A DNA stretch of 64,000 nt from NCBI RefSeq assembly GCF_001179965.1, contig NZ_CVSH01000052.1, positions 1 through 64,000 of the forward strand. The letters run 5' to 3'. The position numbers were made by a program, and so were the translations under genes. The notes beneath the pieces were generated by a model. It was given only the letters and a program-made list of their open reading frames with translations, had not been told where the DNA came from and ran no database searches. The DNA comes from Candidatus Pelagibacter communis (lineage in GTDB: Bacteria; Pseudomonadota; Alphaproteobacteria; Pelagibacterales; Pelagibacteraceae). The number at the start of each line of letters is the position of its first letter. Within the stretch, counting starts at the first letter, position 1. Below are positions 48,591 through 53,275 of this stretch, in pieces.

Positions 48591-49277
48591 CTATTTTTTT
48601 TTAATTTGAAACATTAGTTCGTCTAAATTTTTCTTAATATTTCCTTTTGTAATAGATCTTCCTATAACTAGCCAGTCGCTTTTATATTTATAATAAGCTT
48701 CACTTGGTGTGGTAATCCTCTTTTGATCATTTTTAATTTTATTTAAACTAATACCTGGCGTAATTATCTCTTTTTTAAAAAATTTTTTTACAAATTTTAT
48801 TTCATGAGCGCTGCATACTAATGCATCAAGTTTTGCTTTATTTGCTAATCTCGCTTGGTGTTTTACTAAATCTTTTACAGATTTATTATATCCGATTTCC
48901 CTTAAATTCTTATTATCAAGGGAAGTAAGAGTTGTAACACCAACTATTTTAATTTTTTTTGAAACACTTTTTACAGCTTTAAGCGCTTCGAAGCCGGAGC
49001 TTATGTGCACTGTTAAGTAATTAGGTTTTAAATCTTTTAAAGCCATAATAGCTGACCTCATTGTATTTGGAATATCATTTAATTTAGTATCTAAAAAAAT
49101 GATCTTGTTTTTCAATCCTTTTATAAAATTTCTTCCACCTTTTGAATTAAGAAATTCTAAGCCAAATTTGTAACCGATTTTTATTTGTTTGTTTTTTGTA
49201 TATTTTAAAATTTTTTTTACTTTTGAAATTTTGCTTGTATCGCATGCAATAAATAATTTTTTTTTATTTTTTTTCAT
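48591..49277 (-). CDS. pyrF: Orotidine 5'-phosphate decarboxylase
   Basis: PyrF makes UMP from OMP. The (beta/alpha)8 barrel of 228 aa shows the catalytic DxKxxD set in FLDTKLNDIPNT, CDTSKISKVKKIL near the N-terminus and LVIGRSITKG near the end. With pyrD in this window it covers two late steps of pyrimidine synthesis. The start overlaps the ihfB stop by 14 bases, giving an ihfB-pyrF coupling. Confidence 0.94.
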   Translation of the reverse strand: MKKNKKKLFIACDTSKISKVKKILKYTKNKQIKIGYKFGLEFLNSKGGRNFIKGLKNKIIFLDTKLNDIPNTMRSAIMALKDLKPNYLTVHISSGFEALKAVKSVSKKIKIVGVTTLTSLDNKNLREIGYNKSVKDLVKHQARLANKAKLDALVCSAHEIKFVKKFFKKEIITPGISLNKIKNDQKRITTPSEAYYKYKSDWLVIGRSITKGNIKKNLDELMFQIKKK

Positions 49278-49563: not shown

Positions 49564-51300
49564 TTAATCTTTCTTTTTCTTTTTTTCTTTTTTATCCAAC
49601 TTATCTGATAAAGAAGAAAATGGAAGCTGTCTTCCTGATAATGGGTCTGAACCCATTTCCAGAGCTTTTTTATTTTGTAATTCTTCTAATAGCTTTATAC
49701 TTAAAGACACCTTCCTTTTTTTCAAATCAATTTCTTGTATTGCAGCATCAATTCTATCTCCTGTGATAAACCTTGATGGTCTTGCATCAGCTGCATTTAT
49801 TGCAATCTGGGATTTTTTTATCTGCAACTCAACTTTACTTCCTTCAGGCTGAACAATAAGACCTCTATTATCTGTATTTAATATTTTGACAGTTAAAGTA
49901 TCATTTACTTTTTTATCTTTAAACCATTCAAAAGGATCAGTTTGAGTTTGTTTTAAACCTATTCTTAGTTTTTGTTGATCAGGCTTTATTTCTAAAACTT
50001 TCACTTTTAATTTTTCGCCTTTCTTATACTTTTTAATTTCTTCCTCAGGATTTTTATCGTACGAAAGATCATTTGCATGTAAAAAGCCATCCAAATCAAA
50101 ACCATCAATCCTTAAATAGATTGCATAATCATTCATACTACTAATTGTTCCTTCAATTATTGAGTCTACTGGAAATTTTTTTTCAAAAACCATCATTGGA
50201 TTTTCTTGTGTAAGTCTATGTGATATAGAGACTCTTCTTTTTTCTTTATCAATCTCAGTAATTACACAATTTATTTCATCACCTATTTTAAACATTTTTT
50301 TTGCAGAAGGATTTTTCTTAGTCCAACTTAATTCGCTCGAGTGCAATAAAGTAGTAAGCCCAGGTTCAAGTTCACAAAATGCACCAAAATCCATTAATTT
50401 AACAACTTTAACCTTGTATTCTTTATTTAATTCATAATTAGATATGTGTTCAAATGGATCTGGGGATAATTGTTTAATTGAACAACCAACTTGTTGTTTA
50501 TCTTTGTCAACCGAAATTATTAGCAAATCATGTTTTGCTCCGATACTTAATAGTTCTTCAGGATGATTTACTCTTGAATATGAAAGTTCAGAGGTATGAA
50601 CAAGCACATCCAACTCAGAATTTACATCAAAAAAACATCCAAAGCTGCTATAACCTTTAACTACAGCATTTTTAATTACATCACCAACTTTATATTTTTC
50701 TATAATTTTTGCTCTATCTTCCTTTTTACTTGAAGTTATGATTTGTCTTCTTGATACACATGCATTACCTCTTATCTTATCTAGTTTAATTAAAGCAAAT
50801 TTTTGAGGTTCATTTATTAAATGAGATATATCTTTTAGAGGTTTGTCCGAAATTTGAGAACCTGGACAAAACATAAGCGACCCAGTATCAATATGTTCAA
50901 CGATAACACCACCTTTACACTTGTTTGTTATTTTTCCCATAATAGGCTCATTTTTTTCAAAAGCCTCTACAAGTTTATCCCAACCTTTTATTTTTAGTGC
51001 TTTACTTGCTGAGACAACAACATCACCATTCTTATCTTCTATTCTCTCCAACAGAACTGAAATCTTACTTCCAACTTTTAAATTTTCTAAAAGTCCCAAA
51101 GTTTTAATCTCATTAACATCAACAACAGGTTCTGATTTTAAACCCTCTATAAATAGAAAAATAAATTTTTCAGTTATTTTAGTTACTTTACCCTCTATAA
51201 TTCTACCTTCAGCAATATTTTTTGATTTTGAAAGTTGGCCGTTTAGAAGTTCTTTAAATTCTTTTGAGGCTTTAGTTTCTAAAGAATTGTATATTTCCAT
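49564..51300 (-). CDS. rpsA: Ribosomal protein S1
   Basis: S1 binds mRNA on the 30S subunit and helps initiation on messages with weak Shine-Dalgarno sites. The 578 aa carry six S1 RNA-binding repeats; the later ones contain FGCFFDVNSELDVLVHTSEL and FGAFCELEPGLTTLLHSSEL-type cores. The C-terminus ends in a lysine-rich tail. Its ATG overlaps the cmk stop by one base. S1-dependent initiation could matter in this genome, where several genes lack a clear Shine-Dalgarno. Confidence 0.96.
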   Translation of the reverse strand: MEIYNSLETKASKEFKELLNGQLSKSKNIAEGRIIEGKVTKITEKFIFLFIEGLKSEPVVDVNEIKTLGLLENLKVGSKISVLLERIEDKNGDVVVSASKALKIKGWDKLVEAFEKNEPIMGKITNKCKGGVIVEHIDTGSLMFCPGSQISDKPLKDISHLINEPQKFALIKLDKIRGNACVSRRQIITSSKKEDRAKIIEKYKVGDVIKNAVVKGYSSFGCFFDVNSELDVLVHTSELSYSRVNHPEELLSIGAKHDLLIISVDKDKQQVGCSIKQLSPDPFEHISNYELNKEYKVKVVKLMDFGAFCELEPGLTTLLHSSELSWTKKNPSAKKMFKIGDEINCVITEIDKEKRRVSISHRLTQENPMMVFEKKFPVDSIIEGTISSMNDYAIYLRIDGFDLDGFLHANDLSYDKNPEEEIKKYKKGEKLKVKVLEIKPDQQKLRIGLKQTQTDPFEWFKDKKVNDTLTVKILNTDNRGLIVQPEGSKVELQIKKSQIAINAADARPSRFITGDRIDAAIQEIDLKKRKVSLSIKLLEELQNKKALEMGSDPLSGRQLPFSSLSDKLDKKEKKKKKD

Positions 51301-51947
51301 TAATTTTTAGTTTCTTTCTCAATAATATTTTTTATTTTTAAAAAGCATGCACTTTTAGTTAAATTTGAGGTATTAATCAAGATAGAATCCTTAGTTCTTT
51401 TAAGGGGGGAAATACGCCTATTATAGTCGCTATAATCGCGAGTTTTAATACTTTTTTTTACATCTTTTAAAGTAGTTTTTTTGCCGAGTTTCCTTAATTC
51501 TCTGTATCTTCTTATGGCTCTTACTTTTAATGATGCAGTTATGAAAAATTTAAAATTTGCATCAGGTATTATTCTATAAGTGATATCTCTTCCATCCAAG
51601 CAACTACCATTAAACTTTTTTGGAAATCTATACGCGCAACTAATTTGAAAATTATGGACTAATTTTCTAACTTTTTTATCTTTAGCTATTATTGAGGCAA
51701 TGGTACTGATATCATCATTTAATAATACCTTTCTTTCTAAGTCTTTTAATTTAAGACCTTTAATTTTTCTTTTGATAAATTTGTAAGAGTACTTTCCAGG
51801 AAATTTAATTTTTAAAAAAGCTATATATCTATAAATTTTCCCTGTGTCTAAATAAAGAAGATTAAAATATTTAGATATAGCTTTGGCTACAGTTCCTGCT
51901 CCAGCTGCCGCAGGAGAGTCAATTGCAACTTTAATTTTTTTTATCAT
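51300..51947 (-). CDS. cmk: Cytidylate kinase with altered Walker A motif
   Basis: Cmk phosphorylates CMP and dCMP. The 215 aa and position between aroA and rpsA identify it, as do YLDTGKIYR, GRDI, ASLKVRAIRRYREL and RISPLKRTKDSILINTS. The P-loop reads SPAAAGAGT (residues 11-19), where the family has GPAxxGKGT: the invariant lysine is A17 and the first glycine is S11. The GRDIGTVV segment reads GRDITYRII. It overlaps both neighbours (4 bases with aroA, 1 with rpsA). The gene is otherwise intact; activity is the open question. Confidence 0.88.
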   Translation of the reverse strand: MIKKIKVAIDSPAAAGAGTVAKAISKYFNLLYLDTGKIYRYIAFLKIKFPGKYSYKFIKRKIKGLKLKDLERKVLLNDDISTIASIIAKDKKVRKLVHNFQISCAYRFPKKFNGSCLDGRDITYRIIPDANFKFFITASLKVRAIRRYRELRKLGKKTTLKDVKKSIKTRDYSDYNRRISPLKRTKDSILINTSNLTKSACFLKIKNIIEKETKN

Positions 51948-53275
51948 TTGATAATACCACCAATTTCTCTTATTTTTTTAAAAAATGAAGGAAAAGAAGT
52001 TTTTACAGAGATCGGATCATATATTTTCCATTCCCCACCAAATGATAATGCTGATATAACAGACATCATAAATATTCTATGGTCTTTTAAAAAATCCTTA
52101 ATTACAATTTTTTTCTTTAACTCTAAATTGGGATTTCCATAAATTTTTATTGAATTATCATCATATCTTAATTTTACTCCCATATTTTTTAAAACTCTCG
52201 CTGCAATTTTTAGTCTTGGACTTTCTTTTTGATTTAATTCAGATAGATCTTTAAAATAGGAAATTCCATTTGCTTTTGCGGCAACAAGAAAAATAATCAT
52301 AAATTCATCTATCGCTGCAGAATTTAAATAAGTAGGGCATCTTATACTCTTTAATTTCTTTACACTTTTTACCTCAATATCTGAACATTTTTCTCCATTT
52401 ATGATTTTTGCATTTTTAAATTTAATTTTAGCACCCATCATATTTAAAATTTTTATAAGACCAATTCTCGTTGCATTAATATTAATATTTTTTAAAATAA
52501 TTTTGGAGTTATTGGAAAGTACTGTAAGTACTATAAAAAAAGAAGCAGAGCTTATATCCCCAGGAATATTAAAATCAAATTTTTTAATTAATTTTGGTTT
52601 AGATAATGTGATAAAATCATAATTGAATATCTTTTTTGTTTTAATTGGAATTTTGAGGGCTTTAAACATATTTTCAGTATGATTTCTTGAGCTTTTAGCC
52701 TTTATTTTTATTTTACCTGGAACATTTAAAGAGGCTAACATTACACAAGTTTTACATTGTGCAGATCCTTTGTTTTCAATATATTTGATTGGCCTCAAAT
52801 AATTTGAGCCTTTTATAAAAATTGGCAATTTAGATTTATTTGCAGGATAAAAATTCACCCCAATATTTTTTAGTGGTTCAATTACTCTTGAAAAATCCCT
52901 TTTTGATAAACTTTTATCACCAACTATTTTTATTTTGTAAGGAGATTTAATTAGAAGGGAGAGTATTAATCTCCCTAAAGTACCTGAGTTTCCAGCATTT
53001 AATATTATATTTTTTTTAAAAATAAAACCATTTAGACCTCTCCCTGATATTGAGCAAATATTTTGTTTTTGAATTACTTTAATACCGAGCTTTTTTAGAC
53101 AGTTTAAAGTATTCTGAACATCTTCTGATTTTAATAAATTTTTTGCTGTTGATATTCCTATTGCCTGAGAGGCTAACAATGCCCAACGAATAGATAAGCT
53201 TTTATCACCATCTACATATATTTTTTTGTTATAATCTTTTATTTTTTTATCAATTAGAACAAAATTTTTTGACAT
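51944..53275 (-). CDS. aroA: 3-phosphoshikimate 1-carboxyvinyltransferase (EPSP synthase)
   Basis: AroA makes EPSP from shikimate-3-phosphate and PEP. The 443 aa include DKSLSIRWALLASQA near the start, LNAGNSGTLGRL (PEP and glyphosate binding region), GDKSLSKRDFSRVIEPL and KESPRLKIAARVLKNMG near the end. It supplies chorismate for the tyrA and pheA branches in this window. It overlaps cmk by 4 bases and follows lptB by 6 bases on the same strand. Confidence 0.95.
   Translation of the reverse strand: MSKNFVLIDKKIKDYNKKIYVDGDKSLSIRWALLASQAIGISTAKNLLKSEDVQNTLNCLKKLGIKVIQKQNICSISGRGLNGFIFKKNIILNAGNSGTLGRLILSLLIKSPYKIKIVGDKSLSKRDFSRVIEPLKNIGVNFYPANKSKLPIFIKGSNYLRPIKYIENKGSAQCKTCVMLASLNVPGKIKIKAKSSRNHTENMFKALKIPIKTKKIFNYDFITLSKPKLIKKFDFNIPGDISSASFFIVLTVLSNNSKIILKNININATRIGLIKILNMMGAKIKFKNAKIINGEKCSDIEVKSVKKLKSIRCPTYLNSAAIDEFMIIFLVAAKANGISYFKDLSELNQKESPRLKIAARVLKNMGVKLRYDDNSIKIYGNPNLELKKKIVIKDFLKDHRIFMMSVISALSFGGEWKIYDPISVKTSFPSFFKKIREIGGIIK

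Follow-up and report, generated by a model that had tools for sequence, protein, structure and literature searches.

Loss of the Walker A lysine from the cytidylate kinase of SAR11 bacteria

Can a housekeeping P-loop kinase do without its P-loop lysine? The question is raised by the cmk gene in a 64,000-nucleotide stretch of Candidatus Pelagibacter communis (contig NZ_CVSH01000052.1, positions 1 to 64,000; hereafter the window). A first-pass annotation, made from the sequence alone, described a cytidylate kinase (Cmk) lying between aroA and rpsA in which the Walker A lysine is alanine and the first P-loop glycine is serine, and proposed that either an alternative residue takes the lysine's role or CMP phosphorylation is done in another way. 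Both substitutions are found exactly as described on the minus strand. The features on which the argument turns are as follows.

51944..53275, minus strand: aroA, upstream neighbour of cmk (TIGR01356, 290 bits, cut-off 287.25)
51300..51947, minus strand: cmk, (d)CMP kinase, lysine-less form, 215 aa (open reading frame, PF02224 and TIGR00017 matches, predicted fold)
51888..51917, minus strand: P-loop, residues 11-20, SPAAAGAGTV where the family has GPxxxGKGT (read from the sequence)
51915..51917, minus strand: codon of Ser11, in place of the first P-loop glycine (read from the sequence)
51897..51899, minus strand: GCA codon of Ala17, at the Walker A lysine position (read from the sequence)
51837..51839, minus strand: codon of Lys37 (LDTGKIYR), candidate stand-in, basic in 126/127 lysine-less against 38/103 lysine-type Cmks
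51567..51593, minus strand: GRDITYRII, residues 119-127, with CMP-site Arg120 and Asp121 kept (sequence, alignment)
51417..51440, minus strand: LID motif RDYSDYNR, residues 170-177, with Arg170, Asp174 and Arg177 invariant (alignment)
51396..51398, minus strand: codon of Arg184 (SPLKRTKDS), second candidate stand-in, basic in 127/127 lysine-less against 32/103 lysine-type Cmks
49564..51300, minus strand: rpsA, downstream neighbour of cmk (best matches are models of 30S ribosomal protein S1, all below cut-off; TIGR00717 397.9 bits against 577)

The window Cmk scores 143.8 bits against PF02224 (cut-off 26) and passes TIGR00017 narrowly, at 136.4 bits (cut-off 135.55); TIGR00017 also matches 29 of 29 lysine-less members at E<=0.001, an E-value threshold rather than the curated cut-off applied to each. 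The AlphaFold2 model (mean pLDDT 91.6) has a strand at residues 5-10, a loop and a helix at 17-27, and its 21 best fold matches in the PDB are all CMP kinases, led by 2h92, 2cmk and 7l4a (TMq 0.81-0.83). The likeness to bacterial Cmk (TIGR00017, PF02224; S. aureus 2h92, E. coli 1cke/2cmk, T. thermophilus 3akc) lies in the predicted fold (TMq 0.81 to 2h92, 0.82 to 2cmk), in the CMP-site and LID residues, and in the aroA-cmk-rpsA context, which is shared with lysine-type relatives and in the window is confirmed by the profile matches of the neighbours. The lysine-less form differs from bacterial Cmk in having no Walker A lysine, in the serine that replaces the first P-loop glycine, in the residues after GRDI, which are mostly TY, TS, IT or CS instead of GT, and in the nearly fixed motifs LDTG[K/R] and SPL[K/R][K/R]T. 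GRDITYRII had been regarded as a second altered core motif; its sequence matches that description, but GRD itself is unaltered, and since lysine-bearing Cmks also vary after GRD (GRDIST, GRDIAS, GRDINS) the change is not specific to the loss of the lysine. On the same strand, after rpsA and an HU-like gene, the window holds an open reading frame (48591-49277, minus strand) that we take to be a pyrimidine gene, as it reads like orotidine-phosphate decarboxylase. A single open frame of 657-669 aa covers both aroA and cmk in two further genus codes of the family (G041, G044, G055, G119, G131 and G179; loci L055, L056, L058-L061), with the lysine present in the five that could be read (L056 is mis-framed).

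The substitution is not peculiar to one assembly. Among 130 Cmk loci from searches of Pelagibacterales genomes (L057 being a repeat of L053), the lysine column holds 75 Lys, 51 Ala, 2 Gly, 1 Ser and one mis-framed entry (L056). The lysine-less alignment found at least 538 relatives in a named genome collection; the best 80 of these are all Pelagibacterales, Pelagibacteraceae or Pelagibacter records, including 'Candidatus Pelagibacter ubique strain HTCC9565' (L167), and their P-loops read DSPAAAGAGT in 78 cases, DSPAAAGAGS in one and DSPAAAGGGT in one. Among 126 distinct relatives without the lysine, 123 have Ala (GCT 69, GCA 44, GCG 6, GCC 4) and 3 have Gly (GGA); none of the 127 distinct rows of the lysine-less clade in the tree has Lys at this position. 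All four alanine codons are thus in use at position 17, a synonymous turnover around a constant residue, and a sequencing error at 51899, which would have undone the first-pass claim, is excluded. A divergent lysine-less member with another genus code (L069) reads ATAGSGSTS.

Selection on these genes is strong. The median dN/dS is 0.092 for lysine-less genes (118 usable of 120 sampled pairs, drawn from 602 pairs at 80-97% identity) and 0.120 for lysine-type pairs (44 of 44). Residues D10, S11, P12, A13-A15, G16, G18 and T19 show no variation among 63 aligned rows of the closest relatives, and a few rows differ in the wider set; the cmk gene is under strong purifying selection and the P-loop is among its most conserved parts. 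The view that cmk is not a pseudogene is upheld, and alignment of Cmks from many SAR11 genomes with those of other alphaproteobacteria shows the change to be fixed across many species. Overall, the loss of the Walker A lysine in SAR11 Cmk is real, fixed and lineage-specific, in a CMP kinase that is otherwise complete and under selection.

How often did the loss occur? All 54 lysine-less rows of a 128-Cmk tree lie beyond one branch (support 100/98; present in 100% of 200 bootstrap trees), and two lysine-type clades occur in the same genus as the lysine-less Cmk. With the P-loop columns removed, 22 sampled lysine-less rows still form one clade (99/97), nested in a family clade (100/97) whose other 14 rows carry the lysine; the outgroup of this tree comprised 29 other alphaproteobacteria, its branch being weak (75/45) and the bootstrap short of full settling. 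Since the lysine-less genes group together among lysine-bearing Pelagibacteraceae Cmks even without the P-loop columns, the phylogeny indicates that the lysine was lost once, in an ancestor within this family, and that the loss was kept. Outside the order, a search of 385 alphaproteobacterial genomes yielded no lysine-less Cmk among the 29 best-scoring loci, all of which read GKGT, and the lysine-less profile reached at most 198 bits there compared with 304-374 for nine full-length lysine-less genes; an independent loss elsewhere in Alphaproteobacteria may be found among the lower-ranked matches. A phage origin was also considered and set aside, since the 15 stretches matched in viral contigs include no confirmed relative.

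A lysine-less Cmk could matter little if a normal enzyme were encoded elsewhere, and a second cmk had been named as a finding that would overturn the claim. In four single-contig genomes that are 99-100% complete (G012, G046, G047 and G050), the lysine-less Cmk is the only Cmk found: each gave a single PF02224 match among the 14 candidates scored per genome, and the lysine-less profile, run against all candidates, found one strong match in each. Single weaker matches to that profile in G012, G046 and G050 are presumably adenylate kinase, with the lysine intact (GPPGAGKGT). No second, normal cmk was thus seen in the four complete lysine-less genomes examined, but one does exist in G200, where both types lie on one contig. 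The window assembly is 67.7% complete, so that for the window genome itself the point rests on its relatives, and a second copy could be present there. Of 399 genomes in the genus, 74 lacked a match and 325 gave one: 198 lysine-less, 125 lysine-type and 2 intermediate, which seem to be a contig-edge fragment and a frameshifted copy. The split was made by an E-value proxy (E<=1e-75 taken as lysine-less) rather than from the sequences, and most of these genomes are incomplete. More than one match occurs in 6 of the 198 lysine-less genomes, and only G200 has a lysine-type Cmk besides. An artefact or hidden normal copy, whether a sequencing error or a lysine-type cmk elsewhere, could draw on the incompleteness of the window genome and on G200, but it is contradicted by the varied Ala and Gly codons of 126 distinct genes, by the 198 lysine-less genomes counted by proxy and by the four complete genomes with a single Cmk; it is refuted as a general explanation, and we give it almost no credence.

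The other proposal, a different route of CMP phosphorylation, seems less probable. In the eight genomes searched, a distinct Cytidylate_kin2 enzyme was not recognised: besides Cmk there were only weak matches and one G012 frame of 173 aa just above the cut-off (29.6 bits summed, against 28). Cmk also retains its other catalytic residues. The 173-aa frames of G046 and G052 we take to be shikimate kinase-like (GMMGSGKSS). Some genomes depart from the one-copy pattern. G647 and G680 each have two intact lysine-less copies; G763 has two equal-scoring lysine-type copies (L287, L293) about 10 kb apart and in opposite orientation on one contig; and the sole match in G180 (L286/L294) is a lysine-less cmk split by a frameshift near residue 92, by biological decay or assembly error. 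PF02224 found no match in 14 Pelagibacteraceae genomes that are 89-96% complete, 10 of which look like assembly gaps, as they have no rpsA match either. In the remaining four (G174, G178, G181 and G193; loci L265, L268, L271 and L272; 90-92% complete) rpsA comes next after aroA, without an intervening cmk, and no Cmk was found; what is missing from these assemblies may include a relocated copy. A genome of another family that is 99% complete (G026) likewise gave no PF02224 match.

The history of the locus bears on whether the protein is an enzyme at all. Of 54 lysine-less genes, 51 lie between aroA and rpsA, two lie elsewhere, and one further gene has rpsA but no aroA in its stretch, starting near a contig end. 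The same site is occupied in other members of the genus by one of the lysine-type clades (9 of 9 rows, mostly GSSASGKTT); this enzyme belongs to the same family as the lysine-less form and differs from it in keeping the lysine and forming a separate clade. The second lysine-type clade (14 rows; GE[AS]ASGKST) adjoins neither aroA nor rpsA, and in G043, G049 and G063, which have this kind, no cmk separates aroA from rpsA. In G110 and G755 the cmk between aroA and rpsA is a broken lysine-less one, and about 36 kb along the same contig lies a lysine-less copy that is intact; the degraded remnants at the site (L292, L295) have many stops or lack the middle. As the wrecked copies are covered by a lysine-less gene, they demonstrate the replacement of one lysine-less gene by another and no more, and are no proof that both types share a function. 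The most economical account is a requirement for one working Cmk, a role open to either form.

That account provides the main argument, an indirect one, against a pseudokinase, that is, a protein without phosphoryl transfer that is kept for binding CMP or a partner. Such a protein would fit the loss of the residue most often called essential, and a K13Q adenylate kinase is reported inactive (PMC4325324). Against it stand the invariant CMP-site and LID arginines, its being the only Cmk found in the four complete genomes, the lysine-type enzymes at the same locus in related genomes and the co-occurrence of both types in only one of 198 lysine-less genomes, most of which are incomplete. Overall, we consider a pseudokinase distinctly improbable.

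Several second or moved lysine-less copies (L073, L125, L290 and L291) have an ATP-sulfurylase-type neighbour in common. L125 and L290 also adjoin APS kinase-like and sulfotransferase-like genes and L073 a radical-SAM gene, flanks such as occur in a variable sulfation or surface-glycan island; the neighbours of L278 are sugar-isomerase-like and HAD-hydrolase genes.

What remains in the active site once the lysine is gone? In 29 lysine-less rows the CMP-site residues Tyr39, Arg40, Arg94, Arg120 and Asp121 are invariant; by motif position we equate them with Tyr37, Arg38, Arg107, Arg126 and Asp127 of T. thermophilus, and Thr35 stands where that enzyme has Ser33, as it does in most other alphaproteobacteria read. 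The LID motif R-x3-D-x2-R (Arg170, Asp174, Arg177) is invariant in the same number of rows, and residues 40, 94, 120, 143, 146, 147, 170 and 177 are Arg in 127 of 127. Arg143 presumably holds the place of the adenine-side Arg119 of adenylate kinase. In the P-loop itself Gly16 never varies, and Gly18 and Thr19 hardly do. The ternary complex of T. thermophilus CMP kinase (PMC7259600) has the P-loop lysine linking the beta-phosphate of ADP to that of CDP; this lysine works jointly with Arg153 and Arg171, which hold the transferred phosphate. By the spacing of the LID motif (Arg171, Asp175 and Gln178 there), Arg171 corresponds to Arg170 of the window Cmk.

Could another basic residue have taken over? 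Sequence conservation in the clade points to positions 37 and 184 as candidate stand-ins that might reach the phosphates. Position 37 lies at the N-terminus of helix 2, three residues before the NMP-binding Arg40, and position 184 in the loop after the LID; a third position, 206, is basic in 127 of 127 lysine-less but 32 of 102 lysine-type rows and falls in the C-terminal helix of the model. No conserved lysine unique to the clade was found, positions 37, 184 and 206 being basic in about a third of lysine-type Cmks too, and exceptions occur (Leu37 in L132; Ile184 in the second copy L291, which lies outside the 127-row set). Arg125 of GRDITYRII was rejected as a stand-in because its column varies within the clade among Lys, Asn, Arg, Val and Ile. 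The suggestion that an alternative residue takes the lysine's role is plausible: it gains from the near-constant basic character of 37 and 184 in the clade, but loses from their being basic so often where the lysine is present.

The same conservation weighs on the idea of a crippled but sufficient enzyme, in which the lysine is unreplaced and activity is low, slow-growing oligotrophs with CTP from PyrG needing little recycling of CMP. A related kinase is able to work without compensation, as the K14A form of dephospho-CoA kinase (CoaE) shows (PMC3019153), and the lysine form is at least as successful in the genus, as the two lysine-type clades and some 125 of 325 matched genomes (by the E-value proxy) indicate. 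Relaxed demand predicts neither a strictly kept P-loop nor nearly fixed basic residues at 37 and 184, however, and we hold this explanation to be unlikely, if deserving of attention. Less likely by far is a changed donor or substrate, with GTP, pyrophosphate or polyphosphate as phosphate donor, or another acceptor. Such a change would be expected in the donor loop, altered here next to a CMP site that is kept, and several second copies adjoin sulfation or sugar genes; Gly16, the LID arginines and Arg143 are invariant, however, and Gly18 and Thr19 nearly so, which argues for a nucleotide donor (the equivalence of Arg143 to its adenylate kinase counterpart being assumed).

Other kinases offer precedents in both directions. 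Adenylate kinase, of the NMP kinase superfamily, shares with the window Cmk the P-loop, the LID arginines and an NMP-binding Arg three residues past position 37. The frames of ten Pelagibacteraceae genomes that we take to be adenylate kinase-like, and those of three that we take to be shikimate kinase-like, keep the lysine; the former differ from Cmk in the lysine of GPPGAGKGT, present in all ten read, and in an Asp in 8 of 10 where Cmk has Lys37, within motifs such as STGDLLR. Position 37 is the place of Asp33 of adenylate kinase. In WNK protein kinases the catalytic lysine has been relocated, a move that is proven. The same principle, a lysine supplied from elsewhere in the fold, would hold for the window Cmk, in an unrelated fold and with the move inferred. 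In adenylate kinase Asp33 touches Arg36 in the closed state, and the K13Q form is stated to be inactive (PMC4325324). In mycobacterial CoaE, K14A lowers kcat by only 19% and raises Km(ATP) from 56.8 to 86.7 uM, and the authors note that earlier alanine results were conflicting (PMC3019153). A search of the open-licence literature turned up, among the papers listed, no report of a lysine-less NMP or P-loop kinase, or of a Cmk variant in SAR11 or Pelagibacter.

The best explanation, in our view, is that the lysine-less Cmk is probably a working (d)CMP kinase with an ordinary Cmk fold, in which the lysine was lost once and its charge would be covered by the LID arginines, perhaps with residues 37 and 184. 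ATP would still be bound by the backbone amides of the P-loop together with Thr19 and the LID arginines. These nearby arginines, helped by a basic residue at 37, 184 or both, would also supply the charge that belongs between the donor phosphate and the acceptor phosphate. Activity and compensation are what we infer here, from observations of homology, predicted fold, single origin, purifying selection, kept CMP-site and LID residues and copy number. Counted in favour of a working kinase are the single clade, the varied codons with a dN/dS of 0.092, the sole Cmk of four complete genomes, the eight arginine positions constant in 127 of 127 rows, the Cmk fold, the lysine-type Cmks at the same locus, the one genome in 198 with both types, the second intact lysine-less gene that accompanies the broken copies of G110 and G755, and the lysine kept in frames of the same family presumed to be adenylate kinase- and shikimate kinase-like. 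The published record counts on both sides: the Thermus lysine acts together with Arg153 and Arg171 (PMC7259600) and K14A costs 19% of kcat (PMC3019153), but the same Thermus lysine bridges ADP and CDP (PMC7259600) and K13Q adenylate kinase is inactive (PMC4325324). Against compensation in particular counts the lack of a stand-in both universal in the clade (Leu37 in L132, Ile184 in L291) and absent outside it. A bolder reading, which we regard as possible but hold only tentatively, is that this is a natural P-loop NMP kinase without a Walker A lysine whose phosphate-bridging charge has moved to a Lys or Arg at 37, at the start of helix 2, or at 184, in the loop after the LID; it would be the P-loop counterpart of WNK, fixed across much of Pelagibacter.

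The P-loop lysine is treated as the signature of a functional P-loop kinase, and proteins without it are declared dead. The enzyme that lacks it here is a housekeeping one, the sole CMP kinase found in complete Pelagibacter genomes, and strong selection keeps a small residue at the lysine's position. The lysine-less Cmk is therefore a direct test of how dispensable the P-loop lysine is, as well as a warning for automated calls of 'inactive' kinases, and the lysine-type and lysine-less enzymes at one locus in one genus form a natural pair for asking the reason of the loss. Either the lysine is dispensable or another element does its job, in an abundant bacterium of the ocean.
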